This document shows, piece after piece, positions 14,812-63,018 of a stretch of 64,000 nucleotides of DNA; the first letter of the stretch is position 1, and each line of letters opens with the position of its first letter. The DNA comes from Cinnamomum chago (taxonomy: Eukaryota; Streptophyta; Magnoliopsida; Laurales; Lauraceae), in NCBI GenBank assembly GCA_038049695.1, contig CP142451.1:70200001-70264000 (forward strand), read 5' to 3'. A program made the position numbers and the translations under genes. The notes beneath the pieces were generated by a model. That model was not told where the DNA came from, did not search any database, and saw only the letters and a program-made list of their open reading frames with translations.

Positions 14812-15107
14812 TGGTTCGGCGACCGCAACTAGCCGCTTTGTTATTAGCGTCTAACCGCTAGGAAACCAAACTCCTCGGTTACCCTTTTCGAGAGAAACTC
14901 CAAATCTGATATAAGAGTTTGGTCACTTAGCGGTTAGATCACGGCTAACTGCCAAGTGAAGTGGTGGCTAACTGCCAGGTAACCGAAGTCAGTGGTTACT
15001 TTTCCATAATGCTCCTCTGTCTCTAAAAAAAAATTCGGTCACTTAGCGGCCACCTCACGACTAGCCACCAAGGTCACCAACGGCTAACCGCGAGCTGACC
15101 GAATTCT
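14812..15107. repeat. Palindromic array (CGGTTAACCG / CGGCTAGCCG type) in SIRE-A 5' LTR
   Basis: Repeated half-sites and palindromes of the CGG-T/C-TA-A/G-CCG kind, alternating with CTTTTCGAGAG- and CTTTTCCA-containing spacers about 100 bp apart. Words include ACGGCTAACTGCCAAGT at 14941-14957 and CGGCTAACCGCGAGCTGACC at 15081-15100. Both recur in the gypsy solo LTR at 36246-36685. Confidence 0.8.
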
Positions 15108-15912
15108 AATAATATGACTGTCTCTTCTAATCATTTGAAAAGAGGCTAGCTGCCATACTAGCCATTGGAGCTTTATTTATAAATATCTATAGCTCGTTTT
15201 TCATTATTTCTTTAACAATTTTGAAGATCTCTCACTTCTATATCTTCCCAACCAAAACTAAGCTCTCTAATCCTCTTCCAAACACACCAATACCTGATCT
15301 AGGCAAATCTAAGAGCTTTCTTAGCTCTGAGTAAGTGTGTCTTGAGGAAGACCTTCTAGGGTACTTTGATCTCCAAGTTATTAATCATCTTAACCATAGA
15401 ACACAAAGCTCTTAATTTTGGTTTTGCAACACATTGGAGCATCTTTATCAACACCAAGAAAGCAACTGTTGGAAGTAGGTGGGCCTCGTGAATAGGTTTT
15501 CAGAGTTTTTGACCCACTTGACTCAAGGATCAAGTACCCATAAAGCCATAAACCACATCTAGGATCCAAGAAGCTCAAACTCATGATCAAGATCAGTGAA
15601 ACACTATCTCTAAGATAGATCATGATGTTACCATGCATCCACAATAAATCTGCAACATACAAAGAAGTAGAACCTTCTTTATGACCCACTTCACGTTATG
15701 ACCCACTTCAGATTTCTTTTCTCAAGGAGAATGGTGAAATCTCCAAAAGAAAAACCAACTAGAACCTCAAAGGGAAACCAGAAGAGAAACTAGAAGAGTG
15801 ATGAGAGGCAAATGAGTAACTCTTGCTTTGGGCGTGAATTCGAAAGGGAATAATGTGTTGGACGTCCAAGGGGTCTCCCCTTTTTATAGCTTGAGCAACC
15901 TCCTCTTACTTA

Positions 15913-16058
15913 CTAATTATTATTAGAAGTCTCACTTTCATAACAATTAGTTTAACTTGCTTATTTCTAATTATTATTAGAAGTCTCACTTCCATAACAA
16001 TTAGTAACCTACTCCTTTCTAATTATTATTAGAAGTCTCACATCCATGACAATTAGTA
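15913..16058. repeat. Three tandem copies of a 52-54-bp unit
   Basis: The unit starts CTAATTATTATTAGAAGTCT and recurs at 15913, 15967 and 16019, each followed by CCATAACAATTAG or a close variant. Confidence 0.9.
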
Positions 16059-17474
16059 ACTTTCTATTTCTTTTCCTTTTGAGTTCAAGTAGAATTAGTA
16101 ATGATCTAATAATTGGGCTAGCGTGGGGACCACTAGGGATTTCATAGAAAGCTAGCTCTAACTAGGATACCCTGACCCCGCATCTCATGTGCAATCCGGG
16201 CACACAATTAATTGCAAATAAATCCACTATATAAATGCAACTGTACTCCAGTCCTAACAATTAATTACAAGAAGACCCTAAACTTCCCTATTACAAAAAG
16301 TAGGCATCGCCATCTATATTCATGGATCAATTGGATCTATCCAACCAATTTAGATTCATATCTTATTATCCTTGAGACTCAATCAATCATTGTGATCATC
16401 AGTAGCATCCAATTAACTCTTAATTGAGATGGGTGCGCACTTACTAATGATAAATCCATTAATTGGCACAAGGGGATAATGAGGATAGATACCATCTCGA
16501 CCATTGAATGTTCCCACAGTCCTACCACCACGTGCCCAAGACAACGAGGTGTTGACCTACAGTTGGCTTCACTCATTGGTGACTCAAAGCAAATGAATAG
16601 TTAGAAACTTGAGTTCACTAATATCTCAGGATTAAGAGCCTATTGCTAGAGAATTATGAGAGAAAACTTTAAAGTAAAGACAGTGTTTCATAAGGTGCAT
16701 CTCATGGTCCTTCAATACAACCAATGTACCAGCACAATGATCCAAAGTCTTACACTCAGATGATCGAGACAAATCACACTATCTCATAGTGATCATAATG
16801 TTGCAACCTTGTCAGATGAGATGCCCAATCTCACCACTGGTTGTGAATCAATTTAAGTATAAGATTTGTGACATATGTGTCACGCCCCCAAACCAGAACC
16901 TCGGGGGCGCAGATGGGATTAAGGATAAATATATTTTCTCCCAAGATCCGCGTGTGTGAAGACAATACATTCCAACACACTCTGAATATTTTGCGAAAAC
17001 TTTCGTGGCGTTGCGACCCAGAGACCGTGGCCATCGAATTTCGTGTCGCACTCAACCGTTAACATATAACTATTTTATCAAGAATCATATCAGACCGGAA
17101 TAAACCATTACAACCAAGTACAGAGCTGACAGTAACAGGATATTACATTCCCATACATGTGCAAGTTACAATTATCAATGTGCATTAATTAAAAATCCCA
17201 AGAAAAGGCTACGAGAAGCATACAAGTACAATCTAAATGAATACTACCACACATGTGACGTAGCTCCGATGTCAAGCTCAATGTCTACGTGATATAACCG
17301 ACACTACAACTTGCAAACTCATGGCTCCACAGCCAAAACATCCACTCAGCTCGGGGTGAAGAAGTCTAGACATGAGTGCCAAAATAGTGGGTCAGACACG
17401 ACGGTCCGACAGGTGGGTGAAAAGATAATAAATATACTGAAGAATAAAACATTTGATAAATCATGCTATTTGAT

Positions 17475-17715
17475 CAAATGCTGCGTATAATTAAAACGGG
17501 TGGAAAGATCATGTATATCTGACAAATCATGTATTCATGTAAAACGGGTGTAAAACATGGATATCTGACAAATCATGTATTCATGTAAAACGGGTGTAAA
17601 ATATGGATATTTGACAAATCATGTATTCATTTAAAGCATGAGTAAAACATGGAGATCTGGCAAAATAAGTATCCATTTGAAATATATGCAAAAGCATGGA
17701 TATTCGACAAATCGG
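17475..17715. repeat. Tandem repeat, about five copies of a 46-bp unit
   Basis: The word GACAAATCATGTATTCATGT recurs with spacing 46 (at 17521, 17567, 17613, then degenerate near 17660 and 17706), with AAAACGGGTG in each of the well-preserved units. Confidence 0.85.
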
Positions 17716-18577
17716 GTCATATGAGTGTAACAAGGAACGAGAAACAATATAACAATAACTGAATTTACCTTGGAAAACATTAACACCTATTTAAACAATA
17801 ACTTTCATAAAAGAAATGAATCAATTACTGAAAAACAAATAAGCAATATAAAACATGTAAGGTGTCCAAGGAATCGGGAACTAGCAAGATGACAACCACA
17901 CGAAGCTAAGTCCTCTATCACCGAGGTGACAGAGCAATATCAAGGCGTTGATCTCAGTCACACGAGGTGAGGAGAAACAATGGAATATATACATATAATA
18001 TACTATGCATGACCACGGTAGCGAGCCGGGCATCGGGAACCACAGTAGCAATCTACTGCATCGGGACAAGACCATCTCAAATCGGGACATAAGATGCATT
18101 TATATAAACGGGCGGGACAGGGTGCTCGAAGGCACAAATGCCATCTCAAATCGGGCAATGCACATCGGGGCTAGCAAAATGCTATAAATACAACTTCAGT
18201 GCTTTCGGGAATGATAATTCATAAATCATGAATATTCGGGAGTGCATATCAAAATTCGGGAACAATGGGAATACAATTGAACTTTTGACATTTCGGGCAA
18301 AATATCTAGTTCAAGATTTGTTTAAGGAGAATACGGGTCCCGTATGTTGATTTAATAACAACTTGGTACTCCTTGAGTTTGGGAGACATACCAGGCTCCT
18401 TATACACCTTAGTGATTTCAAAATCTCAAATGAATCTTCGTATTGTGGGTTCTTTCTCAAATGGTTTCATACCTTGTTTATTAGGTCTCCCCAACACAAA
18501 GCGGGTTCTTAATGAACCTCTCAAAACATTTAAACATCTCCTTATTACACCAAACATAGCCCCATATGAACAGTGTC

Positions 18578-18797
18578 CATCGCTCGAGCGGACCAGGGGT
18601 TCGCTTGAGCGGTGAGCTCTCTAGGATGACTTCCTGGTTGGGTTCGCTCGAACTAACAACTCTCTCGATGAGTTCTGGGATGGTTCGCTCGAGGGAAGTA
18701 AGGTCCGCTCGAGCGAACTGTCCACCCGAATGGTTCGAACCATTTCTGGACACTTCGCTTGAGCGACCTATCAAGCTCGCTCGAGCGAACTGTCCAG
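18578..18797. repeat. Palindromic array (TCGCTCGAGCGA type) in gypsy solo LTR
   Basis: About eight exact or degenerate copies of CGCTCGAGCG, several inside the full 14-bp palindrome TTCGCTCGAGCGAA, spaced roughly 20-45 bp and often followed by CTGTCC or GGACC. Confidence 0.85.
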
Positions 18798-21301
18798 AAA
18801 CTGGTTCCGGGACAGTCCTGCTCTTCCCTTTTTCCTCTTCTTACAACATCGTTTGTACCTCATTTCTACACCAAAATGGGGGCTTAAAACTCCCTTCAAC
18901 CATCATCCAAAACACCAACGAAACCTCCATAAACATTTATCAAATCTCCATAAACAATCAACCTAGTCTCCTTCTTCTTCACCCCATTCAACCATAAAAG
19001 AAGAGAGAAAATCCACAACCACAATGATACATTTGAGCTAAATCAAGAGATAAAAGAAAGACTATTGATCACATTTCCATGACAATAGATGAGTTAGCAA
19101 GACTCTTTAATGAGCATTTATTTCAAATCAATGCAAGCTAATAAACATAAATATGAATGGCAAAACCAACCCCATTCCTTATAAAACCATATGAACAAAC
19201 TTTGACCAAATAAAATGCATACATTTCCAAGATATTTAACAAGAGAGAAAGACCCATTAATATGCATTTTCAAAATCAATAGAAATGTGGCAAGAAGCAT
19301 ATGTGAAAACATGTATCAAATTACCAAGAACAAGTAATAAAATTTAGGATTTTCTCATAAAACTTAATGACATTCAAACCATCCATTCATCCACTTGCCT
19401 TGGGTTCCAATTAGCTAATCAAGCTCTCCAAACATTCTCAAGCAATACCTACAAGCATAACCAAAAACCCCCCAAAAACAAACCCATTTAGAACCTTAAA
19501 ATGGCAAATCAAGAAAGACAAGGAATGGGCTCAAACCGAGCTAGGAAATAGAACTTAAGGGGATGCCATTGCACAAAAAAGGAAAATGGAAAGGAGTCCT
19601 TACCTCTAGGGTCATCAATAAACAAGAAGAAGCTTGAAATAGGGGCTGCCCACCTTGGTTTCCCACGAAAATGATGTCAAACGAGAGAGGAGGTGAAGGG
19701 GAAGAAGTTGCCGGAGTTCCATCATCGGATTGGTGGCTTGGAGGCTCCATTAGAGCAAGAGGAATGGAAGAAAAAGAAGAAAGATGGCTGCTGGTACTGT
19801 AGCTAGAGAGTTAAAGTCGATGGAGAGTGGAAAATGAGGGAGAAAGAGAGGGTGATGTTATATAATAAGTGGAGGTGGGGTCCACACTAAGTAGAACTTG
19901 CAATGGAAATTAGAGGGCTTTCCAGACCTCGGATCAAGAAACTTAAAGCATGAAAAGTGTCCGGCATAAGATTAGTTTTCCAACAGGGTCAATATTGACA
20001 TACTTCCGGGGTCCACAGAAAAAGTCAACTTTTTGGTCAAAGGGGTCAAGATAATTGAAAATTTGGGATTTCAAGGGTTAAAACATCGATTTCTGAGCCT
20101 CGGGTGCGATTGACGCAAAAGGGAAAAATGTTTCTCATAAAATCTAGTTTTAAAAAAGTATAATTTTGGCATGGTTCTGGGATCTCGAAATTTGGGTCCA
20201 GATTCAATGTGAAAAGACCGATTTTGCCCCCAGGGCTGGAAAAGCTAATTTTCGGAGCTTCGAATGGGTATGGAGTGAACACGAAAGTTGTAGGGAACGA
20301 CGAGATTCGTCAAACGACACCAAAATGGGAATTTTTCGGAATCACAAAGAACCTCTCTAAGCTTATCACACAAAACAAGTAGGACCCTACGGTCACTGTC
20401 TACGTTCACTGGCTCTCAAAACTTCCCAAAACTAGTGAAAAATCATTTTAGCTCACAAACTCAACCAAATAAACACTAGTCCCACTTAGAGAAACTAATC
20501 CACAAATAAAATAACACTAATCCAGGAAATTAGGGGTCGGGGTCTCACAATATGTCTCATGTATGTGGATCTCATCCACATACATGTATCACATCTAATA
20601 TACTTGTGGGTCCCGGTTTATCTCATGAACTATCATGTCATTCGTATTTATGTGCAAGCAGGGAATAAAACCATTCATCTCATTAAATAAAAGTATTATT
20701 ATATTGATAAATAAAGAAATAAATCAATTTATTACATCATCCACTGGATTGAGACCATATAATCTAACAGCATCAAGAGGTTAAAGCTTCAACTGCGGCT
20801 AAAGCTTCATCGAACACTTTTCAGACTTCGTCAAAGGCAAGTGTTCGCAATCCAATCAAATTCTACAATCTATGTATGTTGAGATAGTGAATTGAAACTG
20901 TGTGCTTCAACCACTCTAAAAATTGTGTGGGGGATTAGATCTGTGTTATCGAACCTAATTATCAAAATTGGGTTGTGGAAGTGTTTGGAATCATTACTTA
21001 TGTAGTTTAATTCTTCATAGTGGAACCAAGGGATTGTGTGACCTTTGTGAGTGGATGTAGGACGCGTGGTCCGAACCACTATAAATCTGTGTGCATCTCT
21101 ATATATTGCTTGTTTCAATATCTTGGTCTTGTTTCATATTCATTCTCTATATTGAACATTGCTGTGTGCACACACCTTTGCCAACATCTCACTCAATCAC
21201 TTTGTAATCTTTTTTAATTTGTTAAAAATTGTAAAGAAGGTCAATAGTCATATTTACCCCACCTCTAAGATTTGTACATTAGCCCTAGCTGCACTTTCAA
21301 T

Positions 21302-21313
21302 TGGTATCAGAGC
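21302..21313 (+). other. Primer-binding site of SIRE-A
   Basis: TGGTATCAGAGC lies two bases downstream of the 5' LTR end. It is complementary to the 3' end of plant initiator methionine tRNA, as in most plant LTR retrotransposons. Confidence 0.9.
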
Positions 21314-22013
21314 GTAAGTTACTCCATAAGTCTTAACAACCCGGAGTAGATATTCTGCCAATACTAGTGCCAATGTCTAACCCAGAAGGTAGTGCTGTAA
21401 ATAGACGACCATTGTTTGATGATATAAATTGTGCTTTTTGGAAAGCCCGAATGATCGTTTTTCTGAAATCTCTTGATTGGGCTGTGTGGGAAGCTGTAGA
21501 GGATGGATGAACTCCTCCTATAGTCATAGCTACAGATGGCATAGTTAAACCTCTTGAGAAGGCCAAATGGACAGCCGATCATAAGGCAATGAGAGGAATG
21601 CTAGAGTTTTTATTTTGTTGCAATTTGATAGGATGCATTTATTTTCATAGCTTGACCTCTCATTCTTTCATGTTCTTATTCTTAGGATCTTGATGTATAT
21701 TTCTCTTTCATAATCTTTGTTTTTATCATATGTTATGCATGGTTTTCAAATTAGTTATGTTTCTTAAGTTCATGAAGTTTTGAGTTCAGATTTTCAAGCC
21801 TCTAAGTGTTTAAATCTTTAAGTTCAAAATCTTTCAAGCTTTCCAAAGTTTCCTTCTTTAAATCCATATTTTGATTTGGAGTTTTCATGTCTTTAGAAAA
21901 TCAGTTTTCATCCTTTTTCAGTCATGAATTCATGCTTGAGAAATGTGTCTCAAAGTCCCCTGGAAAGATGCCCTCTAAGTTGCAAGTTTCTAAAATTTCA
22001 GGAATTCTGGGCA

Positions 22014-22166
22014 GTCTTCAGGTCGACTTGCCTGTGTGGCCGGTCGACCGGGTCTGTACTCTGCGGGTCGATAGGGATTTTTGAGCTGTAGCCTCTCTAA
22101 CGGATTTATTTATAGCCGTTGTGTGTACCCGGCCGACCCGGCCCTGTACCAGGTCGACCGGGCACT
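22014..22166. repeat. Palindromic array (CGGTCGACCG type) in SIRE-B LTR
   Basis: Repeated GGTCGACC and degenerate forms (CAGGTCGACTTG, GGCCGGTCGACCGGG, CCCGGCCGACCCGG, CAGGTCGACCGGG). It ends at the tag CTAGCCGTTGGG, about 15 bp before a TATA box at 22188. Confidence 0.85.
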
Positions 22167-22187
22167 AGCCGTTGGGAACTTTTTCTT

Positions 22188-22195
22188 TATAAAAA
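22188..22195 (+). promoter_or_regulatory. TATA box of SIRE-B LTR
   Basis: TATAAAAA directly downstream of the palindromic array. The sister LTRs have TATAAATA (54664-54671, minus) and TATAAAG (63040-63046) at the same relative place, which supports a real core promoter. Confidence 0.65.
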
Positions 22196-22548
22196 GTGGC
22201 TTTTTGTTTGGAAAAAGTACCTGAACTTTCAAGGACTTTTGAGGCCAAGGACTAACAACTTTTCTAGAGCATTATTGAAGGGATTATGAAGCCATTCCAT
22301 TGATTCAACCTTTGATCTTCTAAATGGGTGTGCTTCCTTTATCCTAAGTCTTTTAAAATCATTCTTTGTCTCTTTATCTTTGTTTTTCTTCAATGCATGT
22401 TTAAATAGATGCTTACCTTTTGAAGTGTTGTGTTTCATAACATGCTTTGAACTTTGAGATATCTTAGCTTTATGAATCCAACATATAGTTTGTGTTTCAC
22501 ATGAAATTGTTGTCTTGTTTATAACACTACAACAATATGCACTTTTAG

Positions 22549-23155
22549 CGACGCTTTTATAAAACGTCGGTAAAAGTATGACTTTTACCGACGTATTCCT
22601 TAAAAACGTCGGCAAATTTCAATCTGGAACATAGGGAAGTGAAAATGAGAGATTATTACCGACGAATTAGAAAACGTCGGTAAAATGACTTTTAGCGACG
22701 TTTTATTTGTTTTACCGACGACAAAACACGTCGGTAAAAGTCTTTTTATTTTTTATTTATTTTTCTATTTTCTTTTACCGACGAAAAAAAACATCGGTAA
22801 AAGTCTTTACATTTTTTATTTATTTTTCTATTTTCTTTTTGCCGACGAAAATAAAAACGTCGGTAAAAGGCTTTACATTTTTTATTTATTTTTCTATTTT
22901 ATTTTGCCGACGAAAAAAAACGTCGGTAAAAGTCTTTTTATTTTTATTTTTTATTTTCCGACGAAAAATAAAATGTCGGTAAAAGGAATTTATTTTTTCT
23001 TTATGTTTTTTATTTTACCGACGAAAATTAGCGTCGGTAAGTTTCTTACCGACGTTTAGCATAAAACGTCGGTAAAAGTTGTTAATTTTTAACTTATTTT
23101 TTATTAATAAAAATTTATTAATTTTTACCGACGGAAAAAAAACGTTGGTAAAGAT
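22549..23155. repeat. Left subterminal repeat arm of the CACTA
   Basis: About ten hairpin-like units of CCGACG-AAAA-CGTCGGTAAAAG form separated by T-rich spacers. Apparent reading frames here are artefacts of the repeat. Confidence 0.9.
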
Positions 23156-26139
23156 CCTATTTTCCCCTCTCCCGCCCAATAGCCCTCTTTTATCTCTATC
23201 CCTCTCCCTCTTTTCTCTCTCTCGATCTGCGCTTCTCTCACTCTCTGTCTCGCTCTCTCTGCTCTCTCTGTTCTCTCTGCTATTTATCTCTCTCCCTGGC
23301 TCGATCTCAGCACTCTCTCTCGTTCATTCTCTCTGTCTCTCTCGCTAGATCTCTCTCTCTCACTCTCTCTCTACCCGAAACCGATCGTCGCTCGAGGAAG
23401 GGTCTCCCTCTCTCACGCCGCTGCCTCTGCTCGGACCCTCTCTGCCGTTGCTGCCTCTGCATCTCTCCCCTCTCTGCAGGTAGAGTAACTTTCTCATCTC
23501 TTCTCTCTTCGTTTCTATCTGATATGGGTATTTGCAGCTTCTATTTGGAATTTTCGTGGTTAATAGGTTGCATTTCTTATTGTTACTCTCTATTTTTTCT
23601 TTTCTTCAGTACTTTATTTTATTCTATTTCAATTATTTTTTTTATGGTGGGGTTCTACTAGTTATCTGCATTTGATTGTAATCAAGTTGATTGTATTTCT
23701 ATTAAGTTGTAAACTTGTTTACCTGTGATTGCTCATGGAAAATAACAAAACAACTGCAACTCAGCCTAGAAAATGTCCAAACTGATGACCCTCATTTGTG
23801 CATAATCCAAGTTATCTGTACTTGGTTTATGAACATCCAAAAGGGCCTACAGTATGGTCTGTTTGATTTTGCCCCCCAGGTGTTTGAGTTTTTGTTTATA
23901 AGTTATGCTTTCCTTATTGAGCGGTGAAATGTACCCGATATGCTTTGAAGCAGTGAATTTAGCGAGGAGAAGTCAAACAATTAATCCTTGGCAGTTTTCA
24001 GTTGCTGTAAATGGAATTATAAAATTGTTTTATGTAATTCTACTATTGAGCAGAGGAAGTTATCTATATGAGTTATTAAACATTAACTATTCATCTATAC
24101 ATTTTTTTGCATCTTTTTATTTTTGTCTAAGTAGAAACCTCTTGAATTTTTATTTTTTATTTTTCTGTTCAAAAGAATAACTTGCTTTAATTCTATAATT
24201 TGAGTAGGGATATTTGGAAAACAATAGACCATACTCTGTAATGGGTTTCCCTTTCCAATCATGAAACAAAATTACCTATGTGCTATGTATTTGATTTTGT
24301 AAGTGGTCATTGGGAATTTTTTGACAAAAGTAGTTTTTCAAGATACTGGTCATTCCATTGCCTTACTTTTTACTCATTGAGTGAGGATTGTTCTTTGGCC
24401 ATTTCTTTTATCTGTCCATTTCAAGATCATTGATGTGAACACGCAATCTTGTGGTGAGCAGAGAGCAAACTATTCTTTCACCTTTCTTCTGCCTTTTACT
24501 GATGATCATTGATGCGATGGCTAAGGTAGTCCAACTGTCATTATTTTAGGTTATGGGCTACGTCTGTTCCAATTAATGGTTGCAACTTACAATAATCACT
24601 TTACACCTACGCCCCCATAAGAGATGAGCTAAATAAATGATTGTGTTTGTTGGCCTTGTTTAATCCACATACAGTGTGGAAAAATCATATATCTAAAAGA
24701 AAGTCAAACTTCTTTGTGGAAGTGTAGATCGCTGTTGTTCATTCACTTGCTCATCTTCTATTAATAATTTACAGGCCAAGATTTACATGGTCAAGATTGC
24801 CAAATTGCTCTATAATTTTGAGGGCATAGCCTATCTATGTAAGGGACCACTATAGATGACCAGACAATATGTTCCTCTCATCATTTGTGATCCAGGGGCA
24901 AATTCTTCTGTCTCTCATTGCATTAATTCTTAGGTGATTCTCTCATCCTCAAGCTTAGAATTCCGGCGTCTCTAAAACTGTAGAGTTTCTATCCTTGCCA
25001 TATCCATGGCATCCCCGTCATATCCTTGCTTCTTCTGAGCATTATAGCTCTTAACATTGATCTTATACTTGTGGCCCTTTCTTATATTTTGGCTTGGAAA
25101 ACACGTTTCTGAAATTTCTTGGAGCAAAAACTTTTGTTGTGGGTGATTTGGGTTCTAGTAAGGCTTGGGTCAGAAAATGATAACCCAGTATGAATTTAGA
25201 TCAGGGAAAGGACATAATCTTAAAAAAGATGACCCTAAAAAATATATATAATACACAAACAGGGAAAGGAAACAAAACTTTATAAAGATGGGGAGTCTTC
25301 TAATTTCTTGCCAATGTATCAGCCTCTTCACTCCATTCTCTTATAATATAAGAAAAAGCTATTTAGGGGAAGCTATAATCATGATCTTCATAACCTCCAA
25401 TTACACCAGTTTCATTCTTGAATATGAAGCTCCTTGTGCCCACTTGTAGAATTAAGGCAATCTGTTTCAACTAATGACATTGTAATCTTGTCATACATGT
25501 AAAACCATACATGTAATCTTGTAAAAAAGGACATTGAACTAGAGCTGAATGATTCATAGTTCACACATTTGAGTCTGCATTTGTCAGACCTTAAAGAGAG
25601 AAATTTGGGCTCAATCCAGAGCCAAGGGACTTGTCAAGGCCAAAGACACAGGAGCACGCCTATCCTTTCCTTAGGTCTCTTTCTTTTATTTATTTTTTTT
25701 CTCTACCCATACATTTTTCTCATACTCGCTTGGTCCAACTGATGAATGGGAACCATACTCTGTTTTCAGGACTGAGATTATCTGATTGGTTACCTCATTC
25801 TATTACCTGGTTGGTTAGGTCCAAATTTTGGCTGAGAGTTAGAAGACTAACTAGCCAAAAACACCTGGGTTGAGTGTTTTAGTCATGCATACCCTCATCC
25901 AAAGGTGGTTTACATATTATTTGTATATGTATATTGGACATTTATATGAGACTGTATCATTATTGATTGTAATATTTGTTTAATGAGATGAATTAGTTGA
26001 TGAAAAATGACAATGGTTGTTTGCATGCATTTTTTATATTGAATATAGGTATATGAACAGGTTTGTCTTTTGATACAGGTACATAAACAGGTTTACAGGA
26101 AAATTATATTGGAAAAAATATTAAAAAAATAATAATAAA
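23156..26139. other. Interior of the CACTA, no gene recognised
   Basis: The first 330 bp are a CT/TC-rich tract like a plant 5' leader, followed by a possible splice donor near 23481. The rest is AT-rich with only short frames. A captured host fragment is possible, but I cannot identify one. Confidence 0.5.
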
Positions 26140-26765
26140 ATACTTTTACCGATGAAAAAAAACGTCGGTAAAAGTATTTTATTTTTTTAAAATACTTTTA
26201 CCGACGAAAAAAAACGTCGGTAAAAGCATTTTATTATTTTTTTTAAATACTTTTATCGACGAAAAAAAACGTTAGTAAAAGTATTTTATTTTTTCAATAT
26301 ACTTTTACCGACGAAAAAAAAAACGTCGGTAAAAGTATTTTGAAAAAATAAAAATAAATAAAATACTTTTACCAACGAAAAAAAACGTCGGTAAAAGTAT
26401 ATAGAAAAACAAAATTTTCTTTTTAAAAAATAAAATACTTTTATCGACGAAACAAAAACGTCGGTAAAAGTATTTTATTTATTTTTTATTTTTTCAAAAT
26501 ACTTTTACCGATGTTTTTTTTCATCAGTAAAAGTATATTAAAAAAATTATTTTTTATAAAAAATAAAATATTTTTGCTGACGAAAAAAACGTTGGGAAAA
26601 GTCAAATAAGCGTCGGTAAAAAAATAATTTTTTGCCGACGAAAAAATATTTCGTCGGTAAAAGTTTTTGTCCACCATTTGTTGCCGACGTTTGGCCGACG
26701 AAAATATTTTCATCGGTAAAGTTTTTACCGACGTTTTAGTGACTTTTGGCGACGAAAAATTCCGT
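26140..26765. repeat. Right subterminal repeat arm of the CACTA
   Basis: About a dozen CGACGAAAAAAACGTCGG units with TAAAAGTATTTTA spacers, then a terminal GGCGACGAAAAATTCCGTCG pair just inside the end. Confidence 0.9.
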
Positions 26766-27446
26766 CGCTGAAGGTGCAATTTCTTGTAGTGTAAACTAAC
26801 TTGTTAGATTAAGTTTATCTTCTTTAAAAACAAGTTAGTTCACTTTAAAAAAATTCATGTGTTTGTCAAACAACTCTTTCTCATACATATGATTATCATC
26901 TTTGCATCAATTTAAAGTTTCATCTTTCTAAAAAGAGATAGAGTGATTTCTAGTATATGCATTATTCATAGACTTTGTCATTCATATGCATGCTTCTAGA
27001 AGTTGAGATTTCATTTTCTATTTAGCCTATTTAGAGGCACTCATTTGCACTTACATTGTTCTCTTAATCCATGCATTCATAGGCATTTTTCTTAAGAGAA
27101 AATCTTCTTGTTGTAAAGGTTGGTGCTTAGCCTTGAAAAGCATGCATAGTGTTGTAAAGGTTTATGCTTAGCCTTTGAAAAGCATAGTGATGTATTTGTA
27201 AGGTTGAAGGTGAACCTAAACCTTAGTTTGAGTTAGTGAAAATCCGGTAGGGACACCGGGAGTGGATGTAGGCATGTTGGCCGAACCACTATAAATGCTT
27301 GTGTTATGGTAATTGCCTTTATGCTTACTTTTCATGGATGTTGCTCTCTTGTTTGATTCTATTATTCTTCTTCAAAGCATAAGAGACTTAAAAGCAAAGA
27401 GAATTAAAATCGGTGTAGTTATTTGAGCTCACCCTATTCACCCCCC

Positions 27447-27623
27447 CTGTCGGTCACCTCTCGGTTAACCCTCGGTTAATCGAACTCAGTCGGTTACCTC
27501 TCGGTCACTTGTCGGTTCGCATTCTAGAGACCTGAAACTTCACTTAATTTCAAGAGGGCTCGGTTGACATCTCGGTCGACCGGACCTTACTTGTCGGTTA
27601 ACCAAACATGGTTCGGTCACCTC
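27447..27623. repeat. Extra palindromic array (CGGTTAACCG type) near the 3' end of a SIRE-B LTR
   Basis: At least eight TCGGTTAACC, TCGGTCAC and TCGGTCGACC words lie between CACCCTATTCACCCCCC and CTCTAGGATT. The sister LTR (53466-55233) passes directly from the poly-C to CTCTAGGGTT. The word CGGTCACCTCT stands at both edges (27451 and 27614). Confidence 0.8.
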
Positions 27624-32547: not shown

Positions 32548-32835
32548 TGTTGTGCCACATTTGCATGAGCACTATTTTTGTATTGTCAATTCCATGCCAA
32601 AGAGTCCCGAAGACATTGCCTTTTCATCTACTACAAGGAAGATCAAATTCAAGAAGAATGTCAAGCTTTTGGAAGGCCCGGATTCGTCAAAAGAGAGACT
32701 CCATGCGTGTGCCAACCTACTCAGCTAATATGGATCTAAACGAGACAGTCTTTTGGACCCTAGAACCATTGAAAAAAAATGCTTTGTCGTAAACTGATTT
32801 TCAAACATATATAGACAACTTTATACAGTCCAGAA

Positions 32836-48792: not shown

Positions 48793-48907
48793 TAATCATG
48801 GTACAAGGGCTTCTAAGGTCTTATACCAACGAATCTATCGAACTCACGAATCCTCGCCACGTTCCTAGGACCTTTCCAGTTTCTTTTAAGTGCCTGAAAC
48901 ATGTCCC

Positions 48908-48919
48908 GCTCTGATACCA
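48908..48919 (-). other. Primer-binding site of the Tekay-type gypsy
   Basis: Reads TGGTATCAGAGC on the minus strand, four bases after the 5' LTR end; complementary to the 3' end of initiator methionine tRNA. Confidence 0.92.
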
Positions 48920-48923
48920 GTCC

Positions 48924-51553: not shown

Positions 51554-51775
51554 CATTTGAGGTAAAATGAGCAAATCCTAATTTACGTAAAAATCCTTGA
51601 CTCTACTCAATCTAGACAAATCGAGGTCAAACTACCTACCCAAGGCTCAAGGTCTATCCCAAAGGCTAAAACAAGACTAATTAGTCGTAAAATAACTTAA
51701 TTAGCCACTAAGTATAGTTAATTAAAAAAACACAATTAATTAGTGTTAAACACCTTTAATTTGGGTTGGGTGTAA

Positions 51776-53460
51776 CATTTCTCCCCCCTCTTAGGAATCA
51801 TTTGGTCCTCCGAATGAGCATACCTAAGCAAAGAGTTCGGGATAGTGTCATGCAACTTGCTCCTCGAGCTCCCACGTTGTTTCCTCTGGTCCATTATGAT
51901 CCCAAAGTATTTTAACCCAACGAATAGTCCTTGTCCGCTACACTTGTTCCTTCTCATCAATGATACGGAGCGGACGCTGAACTATGTTGAGTCGGGTTTG
52001 ATCTGAACTTCATCGTATTGAATGACATGAGATGGATCGCGAACGTACTTACGAAGCATCGAAACATGGAAGACATCGTGTACACCCATGAATTCCAAAG
52101 GAAGATTGAGTCTATAAACTACATCGCCAATTCGACTCTTGATTTCAAATGGTCCCACAAAGCTAGGTGAAAGTTTTTACTTCTTCTTGAACCAAAGCGT
52201 TCCCTTCATTGAAGATGTCTTCAAGAATACCCTGTCTCCAACCTTAAATTTGAGTTTCCTTCTTCTGTTATCTGCATAACTCTTTTTTCTTGATTGAGCA
52301 ATTCTCAGTCTTTCTCTGACCTTAAGAACTTTCTCAATTGTGTCTACAATGATAGTGGGTTCATGAAAGCTCATTGTCCCTACTTCTTCCCAGCACACTG
52401 GATTTCTGCAACTACGTCCATAAATAGCTTCAAATGGTGGCATCCCAAAAGCTGAACAGAAGCTGTTATTATAAGCAAATTCACACATTGCCAAATGCTC
52501 ATCCCATTCTCCACCAAAGTCGAGAACCTAGCTCGTAACATATCTTCCAAAGTCTGTATTGTGCGTTCGAACTGTCCATCAGTCCGCGGATGATAAGCAG
52601 TGCTAAAGTTGAGTTTAGTACCCATGGACTCCTGAAATGATTACCAAAAAGAAGAGACAAATCTAGTATCTCGATCGGAAACTATCGAATCGTGTGTGCC
52701 ATGTAATCAGACTATCTCTTTCACAAAAATCTTAGCCATATCATTAAACTTCATACCTTTCTTGAATGGAATAAAATGGGCTAATTTTGTCAAACGATCA
52801 ACAATCACCCAAATCACATCATTCTTTCTGCTAGTCAAGGGTAACCCTGAAACAAAATCCATAGAGATATCTTTCCATTTCCATTAAGGAATGTATAAAG
52901 GATGTAGTAACCCTGGAGGTTTTCTATGCTCATACTTCACTTTTTGGCAGGTAATACATCTAGATACATATTCTGCAATTTCTCTCTTCATGTTATTCCA
53001 CCAAAACCCGCCTTTAAGATTTCAATACATTTTGGTGCTTCCAGGATGCATTGCATATCTTGCATAATGGACCTCTGTTAAATTGATAATATCGTATTTC
53101 TTATAGTCGGAACACAGAACCTATCCTTGAAATAAAGAATCCCCTCTTCCAACCGAAAGTCTGGTTTATCTATAATATTATCTCGAATCTTGGCTAATTT
53201 TGGGAAAATAAATTATTGTTCCTTGATCTCCTAAATAAGGGTTGGTTGAAAAATCGACATTGCTGCAAGTGCCACTTTGTCATCAATTAGCTTCATTGTC
53301 ACATCCAAATCCTTGAACTCTTCAAGTACAAACCATTTGTCATTTATCGCTGCTAGGGTAGATGATTTTCTGCTCAAAGCATCTGCCACTACATTACCCT
53401 TTCCTGGTATGTACTTAATAGGAAAATCATAGTCCTTGATATATTCTAACCATCTTCGCT
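51776..53460 (-). pseudogene. Old gypsy: integrase and C-terminal remnants (fossil)
   Basis: Integrase tail ([20 protein letters not shown] near 52590; [20 protein letters not shown] near 52460) and the post-integrase region (FHVSMLRKYVRDPSHV near 52050) typical of chromoviruses. RNase H end and spacer ([24 protein letters not shown]) lie near 53380-53460. Many breaks. Confidence 0.85.
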
Positions 53461-54663
53461 GTCTCTGAAAGTCCTGAGATCCTAACCCTAGAGGGGGGGG
53501 GGGTGAATAGGGTGTGCTACAATATGTGACCAATTATGACAAATTTTAATTTCTTTGAAATAAACAAGTCACAAGTGATGATTTACCAAATAAGATGCGG
53601 AAGCTAACAAAAGAAATCACTACAAGTATACACAAAGATTTATAGTGGTTCGGCCTCAATGCCTACATCCACTACCGGCTTGTGATCCAATCACCCTACC
53701 GGATTTTCACTATCTATGCTTTTCAATAGGCTAAGCAATAACCTTTACAATGTTGTTTTTTCTAGGCTAAACAACAACCTTTACAAGATGCTTTTCCAAG
53801 GCTAAGCAATAACCTCTACACTAATGCTTTTCTTTAGGCTAAGCAATAACCTTTACAATAAAAAGATTTTCTCTCAATGTAGTGTCTACACAAACACTTT
53901 AAGAGATACAATTAAAGCTCAATATATTTGCCTCTAAAATAGGCGGATATGAAAGTGAAAAACTAACTCACACAAACACTAAATGAATGCAAAGATGTAT
54001 GCTCATGATGTGTGTGTGTGATAACTTTAATCAAGTTTAAAAAGTAAGCTCAATAAATATATGCTCAAAGCATTTAAAAGTTTAAGGCACATAAAATTTT
54101 TTGATTGAAGTGAAATGCAAATCACATGTATGGATACAAACTTGTTAATGATATGAAAATCAAAGGCACACAAGTTGTATGAAATTAATTAGCTGTAAAC
54201 ATGTGATGCATGTGCAATGTTGTTTTCAAAACCAAATTAATTTAACTAAAGTTTAAATGAATGAAAACAACAAATAAAGATTCAACCAAGAAAATGAATC
54301 ATGCTTTAAAAGAAATCAAAGATTTTGGCTAAGCATGATTAAGGAAGATTTTAAAACAACTTGGATTGAAATCAAAGTGGAGAATCCAATCTAACTTAGA
54401 TCAAAGATTAAAAAAAAAATGAATTCAACACATCAAAGTTATCATGCTAAAAATCATTTACCAATAATTTAAACAAAGCATATAACATATGATTAGTAAA
54501 AGTAAAGCTTACTTAGAGATTTAATTTCATTGATCCAAGCTTTAGCTTCACTAATGACCCATTGGTCTCTCTTAGTTCATCCCCCTTTCTTTGTCTTAAA
54601 ACACCTCAAGAGTGGCTCTTGGTTCCTCTCTTTTTCAACAACTTTTCCAAAGGAATGAACTTG

Positions 54664-54671
54664 TATTTATA
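54664..54671 (-). promoter_or_regulatory. TATA box of SIRE-B solo LTR
   Basis: TATAAATA on the minus strand, downstream of the array at 54697-54860 and the tag AGCCGTTGG (54769-54777, minus). Confidence 0.6.
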
Positions 54672-54696
54672 CTCAAAAATTGAGTTTCTGCGTCTC

Positions 54697-54860
54697 CCCG
54701 GTCGACCTGCCTTAACCCCGGTCGACCTGGCCTTCAACGGTCATAAAACTGACCGTTTGAAAAAGAAGCCAACGGCTCTTTCCCGGTCGACCGCGCAGTG
54801 TGGCTGGTCGACCGGGTCCCCTGGGCCGGTCGACCGGCCACACTGCGGGTTGACCCGGGC
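54697..54860. repeat. Palindromic array (CGGTCGACCG type) in SIRE-B solo LTR
   Basis: At least six GGTCGACC units, two of them extended perfect palindromes (CCGGTCGACCGG), with the companion word CACACTGC/GCAGTGTG between them. Confidence 0.88.
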
Positions 54861-55238
54861 CTGGGACCAAAATTCCCTAAAATTGCATTTTTCAAATAGA
54901 TTTCTTGTGGGAACTTTTGGGCCATTGAATCAAGCTTGTAATCATTATTTAAATCAAACTAAGAGGGTTAAAATCATGAAACATAAAAAGCCTAAAGTGG
55001 TTTGAAAGATTTAAAACATAGGCTAGCTTGATTTGGTAAAACTCCTTTTCAAAATAAATTGCATCCAAGTTTAAAATCAAAACATGCATAAATCAACATT
55101 TTTACAAGTCTTAAAAACAATGCATGTATAAATCAAGATTTCAAGTTTTTCTAAATCAATGCATGTGAGTAAATTCAAATGATGCGAAAATGATAATGCA
55201 TCCATCAAATTGCAATACACAAAATCCCTATCAGTCTC

Positions 55239-58233: not shown

Positions 58234-58245
58234 GCTCTGATACCA
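58234..58245 (-). other. Primer-binding site of the old gypsy
   Basis: TGGTATCAGAGC on the minus strand, six bases from the inferred 5' LTR boundary (TGTAGATCACATCCCG on the plus strand at 58252). Confidence 0.85.
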
Positions 58246-58251: not shown

Positions 58252-58625
58252 TGTAGATCACATCCCGATCCCGAATCATCCTGGCCTAGGCTAATCTCCA
58301 AGGTGTGACACGCGTACTCCCGTTATATAATACCCGTCCTAAGTCAAGTACGGCATCACGAAGGGGAAAATCAACCTTCTAGGTCTGAGTCTAGCTCACT
58401 AACACATGTCAACAACATTTGATAGCAGAAGATAAGTTTCAAGTTTATACAAAAGTTATACAAAAGTTATTTACACAATGGAACCAAAGTTGGGATTATA
58501 AAAAAAAAAATCACCCCACCCAACCTATATAGAATATAATCCAAAAGTATCTATTTAGTGTGACCCACACAAAAAGAAGTAATTGCACTTCCAATCTAGC
58601 TTTCAAAAGTTCCCCCTTCGCTTTC
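58252..58625 (-). repeat. Part of the 5' LTR of the old gypsy
   Basis: From the primer-binding side to the CACTA insertion. The rest should lie beyond the window. It holds CACATCCCGATCCCG at its edge and otherwise nothing recognisable. Confidence 0.55.
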
Positions 58626-59981
58626 ACTATAAGAAAAAACATGTTTGGTGGCATGAAAAAATGTCACCGAAGGCCCAATTTTTATCACCTATTATCATTG
58701 ATGACACGGGATGGGGGTGTCATTGTATCCATGACACTAGAAGTCAAGGGTGACAAAGTTTGTGCACTTGTCACGGAATGATGTCAACAGTGACAAAAAT
58801 ATGGTGTCGTGGAAGAAAGATTTTCCATGACATAGTAGGGTGTCACTGAAAGCAATGGTGACAACAATGCGGGTGCCATAGAAAAGAGATCTTCTATGAT
58901 AAGAATTGTCACTGAAAATATTTACCCTGACAACCAAATGCGTGTCACCGATAATATTACCAGGTTGGCACACAAGGGTGACATACTCTTTTTGTCACAA
59001 AAAACACAATCAAAATATTTGTGCCACCCAAATTATCATTTCACACTTGCTTACAAAGTTTCAAATATTTGTATCTAGATACACCCATTAGCAAAACTTA
59101 TACCACAAAGACGCAAAATATCATTCAAATCAAATATCTAACAAGGCAACATTCTATCATCCAAGTTCCCAACCCTTCAAAATATTCATCCTTCAACAAT
59201 AAACACTTCAAAGTTAATAGTTTGAAGCTCCTTGGCTCGAATATGGGGACCAGGCCATTGTTCGGTCCCCATATTCAGGCCACATAGCACCCCTCTAACA
59301 GTTTTAGCATAACTACAAAACATCCATACACGGTGTGTCGTGTCAAACGACAAAATAATTCAAAATAAGTGTTCCAGTTAACTACAAAAAGTCTTCAACT
59401 CCATCTTGGTCATCTTAGTTAACTGCCAAAAAGTAACTCCATCTCGTTAGTAACCTACCTGTATAAAATCGCAACAAAAAAATGTAATTACTTAACATGT
59501 TATGAAGCACAAAACTCAAAATAAATGAATGATAAAATAAAATGTTTCTGACCATTCTTGTGGTTATACGTAGTAGGATGCTTTTCTCTTTTTGTTAAAC
59601 ATAGATATGTTTATGCAACGTATCCTATCTGTACCCATATCCTATTTTCTAAATTTTTTCATAACATTGCATTGGCCTCGTACTCTATCTTGTCCCTAGG
59701 GAATCAGTTGATACTTCTGCTAATACACTCTTTTGAAGTTTGGAATGCTAATACACTCCAATGATCAATGATAATTTAGTTTAAAGACAAAGATCATATT
59801 AGTTATATGCCTTCAATTTTCTATAACTGTTGGCTCCATTAGCATTGATTAATCCTAACCCATACAGAAGATCTACTAGTAGAACCATGAATGAAAATCA
59901 GACCTCAAATATTTCCATATCAGTGCAAGCTTCAACACGATCAAATAAGAGAAAACACAATGCAAATTTAATTAAAGAAAA

Positions 59982-60232
59982 CTAGTGAGGTCTCACTAGT
60001 TTCCTCTTCCAAGTAACACATCTCACCAATTTTCAAAACTAGTGAGATTTCACTAGTTTCCTTTTCCTTTAAGTGACATCCCACTAATGTGACATCTCAC
60101 TTATTCTCAAAACTAGTGAGATCTCACTAGTTTCCTCTTCATTTAAGTGACATCTCACTAATTTTCAAAACCAGTGAGATCTCACTAATTTCCTCTTCTT
60201 TAAGTGACATCTCACTGATTATTATTATCACT
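59982..60232. repeat. Palindromic array (AGTGAGATCTCACT type), about five units
   Basis: Units of about 60-70 bp built on ACTAGTGAGATCTCACTAGT (a perfect palindrome near 60112-60131; variants near 59991, 60043 and 60170), spaced by TTTCCTCTTC...AAGTGACATCTCACTAATTTTCAA. One CGGTCGACC word lies just beyond at 60282-60292. Confidence 0.88.
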
Positions 60233-60889
60233 CAGTGGTTTCCTTATACAGAATGAGCACTCATAACCTGATTAGCCCCTGGCCGGTCGACCACGTGCAC
60301 TACGGAAACAGAGCCCAGGTTTTGTTTATGCAGTGAAATGGGTCATTCCCTTTCATTCCTTCCTGAACCTGATTAGCAGTCCAAACATTGTTATATACAA
60401 GTCCATTCTAATCCCAGCAATCCATCTAATCAAGCCATAAACGTCATAATCCATTTCATTAAATAATTAAACATAATTATCATGTTTTCCAAAATTAAAG
60501 ACATCAACGAGCATGTGGTCATCTAAATCATTATTAAATCATCGAATCAAAGGAGAGACAAACATATCTAAGCATATATATAAATATCTACTTGCCTTTG
60601 GTCAAAATTAAGTAAATCCACAAATCCTAGCTCCATAGCCCAACAAACCAAGCCTAAGGGATAAATAGCAAAATAAAACTAAACTAAATATAAAATTACT
60701 AGAGGGGAAGCTCTAAGCTACCAAATACATTTCTACAACCAAAGTATATTAATCCAAACCTAAGGGGAATGAGAGCTTACCAAACAATGAAGGGAATGGA
60801 ATAGTGGCTTGCAAATTGAAGATGAGTCGCTCGCGGGGTCCTTGCGGAGATGATAGTGATCATCGGAGGTTGTGGGGCTGCCTTTGTAG

Positions 60890-61620
60890 TCCGTTTCTAG
60901 CAAGATGGGTGAGAGAGATTGAGAAAGAGAGAAAAAGAATTGAAATGGAGATGAGTAGGTAATGGGGCCCACTAGATTAGTGGCCCATTGACAGAAAATT
61001 GTAAAAGACAGAACGGAAGAAATAAAGAAAGAAAGAAAGAAAGAAATGGTGAGATAGGTGGGTGTGAGGAGAAAGTCAACGGGGTGAGTGGAGTGGGGTG
61101 AGGGAGATGAGATGAGAGAAAATGAAATGAGATGATGAGAAAATGAGAGGGAATGAAATGGGTATGGGTTAAAATCGTTGGCAGCAAGAAGAATGAGAGA
61201 GAAAGAAAGGAAGAGAGAGAGTGGAAAAAGGAAATGGGGAGGGGTGATTCACGCCGGCAGCAAGGAGGGGGAAAACAGGGAAAGAAAGAGAAATGGAAAA
61301 GGGAAAAATGGGGGAAGAAATAGAGAGAGAAAGAAGGAGATGGGGTGGCAGTGTGCTTGGAAGAGGAGGGAGATGGAGAAGAGAGATGGAGTGGGCTGGG
61401 TTCGCGGGAGATGACTGGCGGCAACGAGCTTGGAGTCTGGCGGTGACGACGTGAGTGAGAGAGGGAGGACGACAGAGATGAGAGAAAGAGAGGGAGTGGC
61501 TGCTGTTGGTGACGAATGAAGATGAGGAGGAAAGGGGGGGTTTTGACCTAACATAAATGGAAAGGGGAAATGGGTATGGGGCAGCACGTGGGATTGAGTG
61601 GGGTGGGGGCATGATGGGAT
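60890..61620. repeat. Strongly purine-biased tract
   Basis: Long GA/GGA-rich plus strand (GAAAGAAAGAAAGAAAGAAA near 61023, then GAGAGAAAG words). All long reading frames here are low-complexity and not supported as genes. On the minus strand of the solo LTR it would be a pyrimidine-rich leader after the transcription start. Confidence 0.75.
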
Positions 61621-61973
61621 GAGATGGGAATTAATAAAATGGGCTTGGTTGGGTACGGGTCAAGTCAAGTTTTGGGTCGGTTCGAGGGTCCGGATCGAGG
61701 TGCAATAGAAGGATAAAGTCCGGGAAATTAGGTAATCTACCCGTTGGTGCCAAAATCTTGAAAACCGGAAAATACTAAAAAACCCTCGGACCTTTCCGGA
61801 AATAGCAACACACACCCCTATTGTACCCAAACGGGCTCGGATCTCAACCCAACTTCGCACGCGCGATCCTAAAGATTAATCGGACCTATTTGGCTTATAA
61901 ATGAGCTTAATTAGCTAAAAGCCTAATTAACTAATTTAATTACATCCTTGGAATCCCGGGATGTTACAAAATT

Positions 61974-62365
61974 GCTTTGGACGTAGGTCGGGGCGGTGGT
62001 AAGAAACTTTTTCAAAGCAGAGAAGATGGAATACCTGCAGTTTCATCCTCCACGGTGGTGGTGGTGGAGAGAGAAGATGCGGTGGAAGCTGAGTTGGGCG
62101 AGGATACGGGCGAAGTGGGAAGTCGAAGATGACGCTGATGAGGTAGAGAGAGAGAGAGAGACCATCACAGCTTTAGGCGTGAATTGTGAGAGAGATGAAG
62201 CAGAAGTTTGATTAGGGCTTTAGTTTCGCGTCTAAATGAGGAAGAGCCCACTAGCGGGAAATTTAGATCTTTCAATGACAAGTTTGTACTTGTCACCCAA
62301 AAATTTGTCTTTTGGTGACAAAATTTTTTGTCACCGAATCTCCCCTTTATTTGGCACCTTGGTTA
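61974..62365. other. Interior and right arm of the second CACTA
   Basis: A GGTGGTGGTGG and GA-rich stretch (62030-62165), then TGTCACC words at 62295-62335. A frame at 61996-62211 is low-complexity and not supported. Confidence 0.55.
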
Positions 62366-62867
62366 TGTTAGGAATTTTGTATTTGCAATTTGATGGATGC
62401 ATTTTCACTTTAGCATCATTTGAATTTTCACACTTGCATTGTTTTAGAAAACCTTGAAATCTGGTTTTATACATGCATTGCTTTTAAGATTTGAAAAATT
62501 ATTGTTTTATGCATGTTTTGTTTTTATACTTGGATGCATTGTTTTTAGAATTCAAACTCTTTTGAAATCCTAATTCTTTGTGCATTACTTTTGAGAAATC
62601 ATATTGAGGATTTAGGTTTGTGCCTTGGATACATTCATCATTTTCAGAATCACTTTTGTATGCATTTATTTGTGAAAAGAGTTTTTAGAAATCAAGCTAG
62701 CCTTTGGTTTTAAAGTTTCGAATCATTTTAGGTTTTTTGTGTTTCATGTTTTTAAACATCTTAGATTGATTTAAAACATGTTACCAAGCTTGATTTAGTG
62801 GCCCAAAAATCCCGACAAAGAAATACCTTCAATTATGCAAAATATGGATTTTTTGGTCCCAGGGGGT

Positions 62868-63018
62868 CAGCTGCCTGTGTGGCCGGTCGACCGGCCCAAA
62901 AGTCCCTGTCGACCGGGAACACTACAGGCAGAAATGGCCCTGAAGCACCAACGGTCAAAAATATGACCGTTGTGTGATCCCGGTCGACCGAGACCTGTTT
63001 CCAGGTCGACCGGGGACT
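62868..63018. repeat. Palindromic array (CGGTCGACCG type) in third SIRE-B LTR
   Basis: Four GTCGACC units (GGCCGGTCGACCGGCCC, CTGTCGACCGGG, CCCGGTCGACCGAG, CAGGTCGACCGGGG) ending at the tag AGCCGTTGG. Confidence 0.88.

Follow-up and report, generated by a model that had tools for sequence, protein, structure and literature searches.

Palindrome arrays and the LTRs that hold them

We analysed a stretch of 64,000 nucleotides from Cinnamomum chago (the window), i.e., positions 70200001-70264000 of contig CP142451.1 (C1) of an assembly with 14 contigs and 1.06 Gb. The window is dense with nested long terminal repeat (LTR) retrotransposons, and twelve intervals within their LTRs hold arrays in which dyad-symmetric sites of one core are repeated 2-17 times. 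These palindrome arrays are real. One of them seems to be common to a Ty1/copia and a Ty3/gypsy family, which suggests that retrotransposons trade control switches.

The elements were defined by self-comparison, termini, target site duplications (TSDs) and Pfam domains, along with primer-binding sites (PBSs) and polypurine tracts (PPTs):

5416-12398: E1, a copia element with an RVT_2-bearing reverse transcriptase (RT); no listed array, a CGCGCG run only
14562-33990, plus strand: E3, a Sirevirus-like Ty1/copia element with nested insertions; TSD ACATG
14562-15464 with 20771-21299, and 32548-33990, plus strand: the two LTRs of E3
21302-21313, plus strand: PBS of E3; its two PPTs lie at about 32249 and 32539
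16878-20549, minus strand: gypsy solo LTR; TSD ATATG; first 471 bp 63% like the start of the E2 LTR
21599-27646, plus strand: E4c, a Sirevirus-type solo LTR in the gag region of E3, split by a CACTA-like insertion; TSD AGGAA
35049-38056, plus strand: soloG, a solo LTR of the E2 family; TSD TGGGT; array flanks 84-88% identical to E2
38608-40321 with 51558-51778, minus strand: two pieces of one LTR, interrupted by E2 and belonging to an older gypsy element; limits deduced from PPT and termini
40322-51553, minus strand: E2, a chromodomain Ty3/gypsy element; TSD CATTT; PBS 48908-48919
40322-43151 (3') and 48924-51553 (5'), minus strand: the two LTRs of E2
53466-55233, minus strand: E4a, a Sirevirus-type solo LTR in pol of the older gypsy element; TSD GTCTC
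58253-61968, minus strand: 5' LTR of the older gypsy element; limits deduced from the PBS (58234-58245) and the termini
62366-64000, plus strand: E4b, an E4a-related LTR that continues past the window end

The arrays, named by position, are:

14812-15107, plus strand: a14, CGGYTARCCG type, decayed; 5' LTR of E3
18578-18797, minus strand: a18, TTCGCTCGAGCGAA type; gypsy solo LTR 16878-20549
22014-22166, plus strand: a22, CGGTCGACCG type; upper part of E4c
27447-27623, plus strand: a27, CGGYYARCCG type; second array of E4c, between its C-tract and CTCTAGG end
32836-33112, plus strand: a32, CGGYTARCCG type; 3' LTR of E3
36246-36685, plus strand: a36, CGGYTARCCG type; soloG, with higher-order repeats of about 118 bp; homologous to Sirevirus arrays
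39306-39445, minus strand: a39, TTCGCTCGAGCGAA type, decayed; older gypsy LTR
41699-41937, minus strand: a41, TTCGCTCGAGCGAA type; 3' LTR of E2
50298-50334, minus strand: a50, the site of a41 in the 5' LTR of E2, where a deletion of about 200 bp leaves two units
54697-54860, minus strand: a54, CGGTCGACCG type; E4a
59982-60232, minus strand: a59, AGTGAGATCTCACT type; 5' LTR of the older gypsy element
62868-63018, plus strand: a62, CGGTCGACCG type; E4b

A first-pass annotation of the window had placed such arrays always inside an LTR, which is true for all 12 intervals. Nine lie in LTRs fixed by pairs and/or 5-bp TSDs, and the LTRs around the other three are deduced: that of a62 was assigned by homology to E4a (its right end is beyond the window) and those of a39 and a59 solely by termini close to a PPT or PBS. 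The annotation's size range of 150-450 bp had to be widened, since the arrays span 37 to 440 bp. Allowing at most 2-3 mismatches, single LTRs with decayed copies show 8 (a14), 3 (a32), 6 (a54), 4 (a62) and 5 (a22) units, and 13 units are found in L061, an E3-family locus from elsewhere in the assembly (L-numbers denote loci or stretches fetched by genome searches). Within arrays, we observe higher-order repeats of 72 and 118 bp. E4a, a relative of E4c, is without an array at the site matching a27, and a27 resembles an array gained away from the usual place, near the 3' end of E4c. The two LTRs of E2 are 96-99% identical, yet the 5' LTR has lost most of its array (41722-41896 compared to 50298-50334), i.e., contraction after insertion was fast.

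E3 contains copia RT/RNase H remnants (28780-29906), of which 28780-29133 shows 35% identity to the RVT_2-bearing RT of E1. A PPT followed by an AT/TG attachment site is a Sirevirus rule (PMC2829016). E3 reads GGGGGAGAT|TG at 32548 and has a second GGGGGAG at 32249, which fits both this PPT-AT/TG arrangement and the multiple PPTs of Sireviruses. The letters of the PPT octamer used for E3 are those we assume for the group. Furthermore, CTATTCACCCCC...CTTTCA occurs in E4a, E4c and E3 and matches a Sirevirus motif by description only; the respective end of E4b lies outside the window. E2, in turn, and a soloG-type element found on another contig (C5, see below) encode RVT_1, RNase H, Integrase_H2C2 and Chromo domains and are thus gypsy elements, apparently chromoviruses, and not Sireviruses. 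The chromodomain (PF00385) has E=4.7e-4 in E2 and 9.3e-5 in the internal region of the C5 element (L069), both below the Pfam gathering score. E2 may be a Tekay/Del chromovirus, as suggested only by its LTR length (2.8 kb).

Palindrome content, dyad spacing and TATA-like sites

Among the 113 perfect palindromes of at least 10 bp in the window, 25 fall into the 2545 bp of arrays (9.8/kb), compared to 1.43/kb outside. With 1000 dinucleotide shuffles per array, an excess at p<0.02 is seen for 7/12 arrays (a18, a36, a41, a50, a54, a59, a62); the other five (a14, a22, a27, a32, a39) stay short of this level for palindromes of that length. Array a27 passes when the minimum length is lowered to 8 bp (p=0.012) and when near-palindromes are counted (p=0.003). 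Not every listed array is a clean palindrome array, since in a14 and a39 no perfect palindrome reaches 8 bp; their decayed units were recognised through comparison with relatives. When whole LTRs are counted (300 shuffles), an excess at p<0.05 is found in only 5/11 array-bearing LTRs, and both LTRs of the array-less E1, which contain the CGCGCG run, also reach it (p=0.007).

Ratios of observed to expected CpG range over 0.85-1.35 for ten arrays and reach 2.47 for the 37-bp a50, compared to 0.42-0.82 for whole LTRs. Methylation targets were one of the earlier suggestions; CpG is enriched in 11/12 arrays, the exception being a59 with zero CpG.

Next, we consider the distances between dyads. For the CGGYTA arrays, the sample comprises 30 loci of the gypsy soloG family (window included) and 17 loci of the Sirevirus E3 family (including pieces of both E3 LTRs of the window). 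Gaps from CGG to CCG peak at 4, 15, 26/27 and 37/38 bp; for CGG-CGG steps, the peaks are at 11/12 and 22/23 bp. All these peaks are common to both families. Most steps between neighbouring dyad centres of CTCGAG arrays measure 20-22, 31, 41-43 or 50-52 bp (exceptions: 18, 25, 26, 33), and 8/12 steps of the GTCGAC arrays fall at 20-22 bp (rest: 24, 65, 65, 75). A cosine score for periods of 10-11.5 bp yields 0.65-0.81 in these three types, compared to 0.13-0.20 for random placement (p=0.002 each, the floor of 500 trials). Jittering the observed steps as a null gives p=0.0002 for each of the three, again the floor. The grouped test was done without a32, a27, a39 and a50, the jitter test without a32 and a27. 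Scanning periods from 8 to 14 bp, the best values are 10.25 (CTCGAG), 10.75 (GTCGAC) and 11.5 (CGGYYA). Steps within 1.5 bp of a multiple of 10.5 make up 83% (CTCGAG), 75% (GTCGAC) and 57% (CGGYYA), with 29% expected by chance. We count three independent cases because arrays grow by duplication. Spacing close to whole helical turns in three of four core types points to a protein on one face of the DNA.

The two arms of the units show no covariation (position 4 vs. position 7, Fisher p=0.87 for 207 units from 30 copies and p=0.20 for 35 units from 17 loci); this is a weak test, as the copies are related. It thus seems that the half-sites are maintained in their own right, not because they pair. 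In both families the commonest unit is CGGCTAACCG (77/208 and 25/35 units), in which one step is mispaired.

We also located TATA-like sites relative to the arrays. In Sirevirus-type LTRs, TATAAAT follows the array after 71 bp (E3 5'), 73 bp (E3 3') and 26 bp (E4a), and TATAAAA follows a22 after 22 bp (E4c); the part of E4b contained in the window has no TATA-like site. In gypsy LTRs, TATAAAT lies further downstream, at 474 bp (16878-20549), 645 bp (soloG) and 650/652 bp (E2 5'/3'). E2 also has TATATAT 135/136 bp downstream of the array (5'/3'), and the older gypsy LTRs show TATATAT at 489 bp or none within 700 bp.

Arrays compared between element families

The soloG family was searched with the flank downstream of the soloG array, i.e., blind to the array itself. 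From 4333 candidates 40 were scored, and 30 loci were fetched, one of which is the window. CGGYTA arrays are present in all 30 and CTCGAG arrays in none of them (0/30). For E2, the query was the LTR including its array (40 scored of 2745 candidates; 8 fetched, one being the window); the 8/8 fetched loci carry CTCGAG arrays, which, given the array-containing query, says little on frequency.

In the soloG-type element on C5, the two LTRs (L022, L013) share 99.2% identity and resemble soloG at 93.5-93.7%. Between them lies an internal region (L069) that matches that of E2 at 93.5% identity and encodes a gypsy protease, RVT_1, RNase H, integrase and chromodomain. Since LTRs so similar to soloG bracket gypsy RVT_1, integrase and Chromo domains, soloG itself is gypsy. 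When the C5 LTR is aligned to the E2 LTR, identity is 82% before and 91% after the array and the arrays themselves are unmatched; in the alignment of soloG with E2, similarity breaks at the array edges. Two branches of one gypsy family hold entirely different arrays at the same LTR site; in this sense, arrays behave as cassettes. Most simply, the CGGYTA array would be the newcomer in the soloG branch, because other gypsy LTRs (a18, a39), with distant or no LTR similarity, hold CTCGAG arrays. Within the a39 family, 7/8 fetched loci (window included) show between one (L075) and about six (L077) CTCGAG units, and L078 has only one candidate unit, CCCGCTTGAGCGGG, at the border of the inspected stretch. 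A scan of viral contigs did not find the CTCGAG array.

The E3 family was searched array-blind as well (40 scored of 503 candidates; 30 fetched, among them L039, L049 and L052, the window's own LTR pieces). Here, 17/30 loci have an array that can be aligned to that of L061 (score at least 60); 13 are below, some perhaps with cut or decayed arrays. Recurrence in LTRs of the same families, the lack of which the first-pass annotation had named as refuting, is thus seen in 30/30 fetched loci of the soloG family and in 17/30 of the E3 family. The E3 family is copia, because RVT_2 and a copia integrase lie in L070 between L060 and L056, two E3-type LTRs that are 95% alike over 736 bp, and because E3 has two PPTs and the AT/TG site.

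The LTR of L061 is 69% like that of E3. Its array aligns end to end with the soloG array at 66% identity over 411 columns, spacers included. The respective score of 86 compares to 11.4±1.3 for dinucleotide shuffles, 24.8±4.7 when spacers are shuffled and half-sites kept, and 23.6±3.5 for permuted blocks. Against a14, a32 and L047, the soloG array scores 51, 29 and 42, each above all 300 shuffles of every kind. When four of the 17 E3-family arrays are compared to the 64-kb window (E<=1e-3), matches occur only at the E3 LTRs around a14/a32 and at a36, the latter with best E values of 6e-32, 2e-25, 3e-24 and 3e-17. The soloG flank downstream of the array reaches a score of at most 20 against the 30 E3-family loci, and arrays of unlike core (soloG vs. 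a54 or a41) are not similar. For a27, homology to the E3/soloG arrays could not be demonstrated (spacer null p=0.02-0.03, block null p=0.08-0.31). Matches of the upstream soloG flank in L039, L056 and L061 were rejected as shared LTR sequence, since they lie beyond the E3-type LTR; the match in L039 is soloG itself, and we take those in L056 and L061 to be neighbouring gypsy sequence.

In an unrooted array tree of 26 rows (17 E3-family and 9 of the 30 soloG-family loci), the gypsy arrays group into a single clade, which falls among the Sirevirus rows with support 86. We read this placement as homology, with no close donor sampled. The data suggest that one array is common to unrelated copia and gypsy elements, the remaining LTR not being homologous. 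The earlier description of the cores as family-specific, in otherwise unrelated retrotransposons, is thus only partly right: CGGYTARCCG is common to a copia and a gypsy family, and two branches of one gypsy family have unlike arrays.

We reject a faster point divergence of arrays, having compared two families with their flanks. For 30 soloG-family loci, divergence is 0.068 in the array, 0.076 in the upstream flank and 0.0375 in the downstream flank, which is largely the query and hence biased. For the E3 family (15/17 array loci; L049 and L059 dropped), the array shows 0.286 compared to 0.232 for the flank, with a correlation of 0.83. In L062, L063, L064 and L066, the start of the E3 LTR (78-79%) and the part from 622 on (71%) are kept, with other, array-less sequence in between. 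In L063 and L064, CCGTTGGA repeats stand directly before TATAAATA.

Known systems, function and rival explanations

The nearest known counterparts are the RM boxes of Sireviruses, i.e., CpG-rich, dyad-symmetric palindromic units with a CGG-CCG signature in the upper LTR before the TATA box (Bousios 2010, PMC2829016). There, at least eight units per element are reported, and the TATA box follows on average 37 bp past the CpG island (PMC2829016). The core of a22, a54 and a62 is letter for letter the Vitis RM CGGTCGACCG (PMC2829016). The arrays of E3 and E4a-c have the CGG-CCG dyad core (CGGYTARCCG and CGGTCGACCG), and a TATA-like site soon follows the cluster in E3 5', E3 3', E4a and E4c (22-73 bp). 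The arrays of E3 and E4 appear to add new members to the RM-box kind. The gypsy arrays a36, a41 and a50 (by likeness also a18, a39 and a59) do not lie in a Sirevirus. RM boxes were termed Sirevirus-specific and absent from the classic copia elements compared (PMC2829016); unlike them as described in the available parts of that paper, the arrays studied here also occur in LTRs of gypsy elements with a chromodomain, include CTCGAG and AGATCT cores, and show near-helical spacing and apparent module exchange. Maize Sirevirus LTR palindromes, reported to be small-RNA hotspots (PMC5311732 and PMC10760457, after Bousios 2016), are alike in that they cluster in the LTR cis-region, fold strongly and vary in sequence. 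They differ in being viewed through small RNAs, and the accessible sections of both papers have no gypsy arrays or swaps. PMC6911290, PMC11963269 and PMC10794571 mention palindromes and, in the sections available, no LTR arrays. Exchange as such has precedents: template switching can fuse plant LTR elements (PMC1950507), and exchange has been reported between lineages of one centromeric family (PMC11302176). No prior description of gypsy-LTR arrays, helical phasing or copia-gypsy array exchange was found in those parts of the openly licensed literature that were accessible.

The first-pass annotation had offered dimer sites, hairpin or small-RNA sources and methylation targets without choosing among them; near-helical spacing in three core types and the lack of arm covariation favour dimer binding. 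On balance we lean towards reading the arrays as enhancer-like cis-regulatory modules of the U3 region to which dimeric proteins bind and which pass on together with the LTR, with an occasional swap of the whole module. Sequence-specific proteins, most likely transcription factors of the host, would bind the dyads as symmetric dimers, sit side by side on one DNA face and raise transcription from the LTR. With a change of array, an element would change its activator. Swaps may arise by recombination, e.g., template switching during reverse transcription, or by gene conversion. For a wider claim the odds appear about even, namely that the arrays form a pool of interchangeable, helically phased enhancer cassettes for dimeric regulators, which move between Ty1/copia Sireviruses and Ty3/gypsy chromoviruses and take each other's place at one docking site in the LTR, such that regulation evolves apart from lineage.

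Palindromy could also concern RNA: the transcribed U3 would fold and be diced, and the small RNAs would silence or self-limit the family. Folding of the sense strand is indeed strong in 11/11 arrays (a50 left out; z -2.05 to -10.1, compared to -1.4 to +2.4 for six flank controls), and the maize hotspots (PMC5311732, PMC10760457) speak for this explanation. Given such folding, small-RNA production is possible as a consequence. As a purpose we consider it unlikely: the arms are without covariation (a weak test on related copies), the commonest unit is mispaired at one step, and an RNA hairpin gives no reason for near-helical spacing. Folding of the arrays is thus probably a side effect, and the folded U3 RNA and its small RNAs would be a cost. 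Clearly less probable still is that an element-encoded DNA-binding protein recognises the dyads and lifts silencing, with core switches tracking this protein, as for VANC of Arabidopsis VANDAL elements. VANC targets are often tandem repeats that vary between related transposable elements (PMC5735166, PMC10398659), and the evolutionary style is the same, i.e., short sites amplified in tandem in noncoding DNA that differ among close relatives; moreover, Sireviruses may have an extra envelope-like open reading frame (ORF; PMC2829016). In VANDAL, however, the anti-silencing protein is known, and no such protein was found in the ORFs scanned here: scanned gypsy ORFs (some short ones were unscanned) encode ordinary gag, protease, RT, RNase H, integrase and chromodomain only. 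E2 and the soloG-type element differ in their arrays and barely in their internal DNA.

We give an equally small chance to arrays without any role, arising as a mutational by-product of short palindromes prone to slippage and tandem duplication. The 72- and 118-bp repeats, the array deletion between the LTRs of E2 and the recent movement of array-less relatives are what this would predict; near-whole-turn spacing in three unrelated core types, a location upstream of a TATA-like site and the like design of distant Sireviruses (PMC2829016) are not. Convergence concerns transfer only, i.e., the CGGYTA arrays of copia and gypsy would be alike through the same composite of binding sites. Identical proteins would need the same spacing and half-sites, and the long branch in the array tree is in line with this. 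The arrays, however, align in order through their spacers over about 420 bp and far exceed the spacer-shuffled and block-shuffled nulls (z=13 and 18), such that we find convergence improbable, to about the same degree as the hairpin source.

Besides the strong folding, several observations count against enhancer modules that are phased and exchanged. L063 and L064 form an LTR pair with 99.6% identity, i.e., array-less kin of E3 moved recently; because of this, the array is not needed for transposition. The soloG-type arrays sit on a long branch (0.74) of the unrooted tree, and no direct donor was sampled. The TATA distances carry no chance control. For CGGYYA, the best period of 11.5 lies at the edge of the helical band of 10-11.5 and just 57% of steps are near multiples of 10.5; the best periods also differ among types. 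Units are partly duplicated (118-bp and 72-bp repeats) and copies are related, so that steps are non-independent and the real sample is three core types. Finally, a59 is unphased (p=0.97 and 0.72) and has no CpG either.

If the reading as exchangeable enhancer cassettes holds, Sirevirus palindromic boxes are a shared control module and not the quirk of one lineage, and through the near-helical spacing a long-standing descriptive puzzle becomes a binding model that can be tested. Module exchange between copia and gypsy would mean that abundant plant retrotransposons can change their regulation through swapped cassettes, and that families grouped by coding sequence may differ in regulation or silencing triggers.

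Some further observations concern single elements. Array a59 combines the absence of CpG and of helical spacing with the strongest predicted RNA folding of all (z -10.1) and may be another kind of thing. For the older gypsy element (51778 and 58253), no similarity exists between the 5' and the 3' LTR, yet the coding remnants between them are colinear; it may be a recombinant of two families. CACTA (En/Spm) elements carry subterminal arrays of short inverted motifs bound by protein, which differ from the LTR arrays in that binding is of the transposase type, at transposon ends. The CACTA-like element within E4c (22650-26660) has CTTTTACCGACG-A8-CGTCGGTAAAAG inverted-motif arrays at both ends, in the form of tandem repeats at 22706-23040 and about 26136-26600. 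A 0.5-kb direct repeat (86%) lies on both sides of E1, outside its LTRs (4884-5416 and 12427-12940), and a remnant of a Mutator-like element (MULE) transposase at 481-1266 (minus strand) shows DBD_Tnp_Mut and a weak MULE match.

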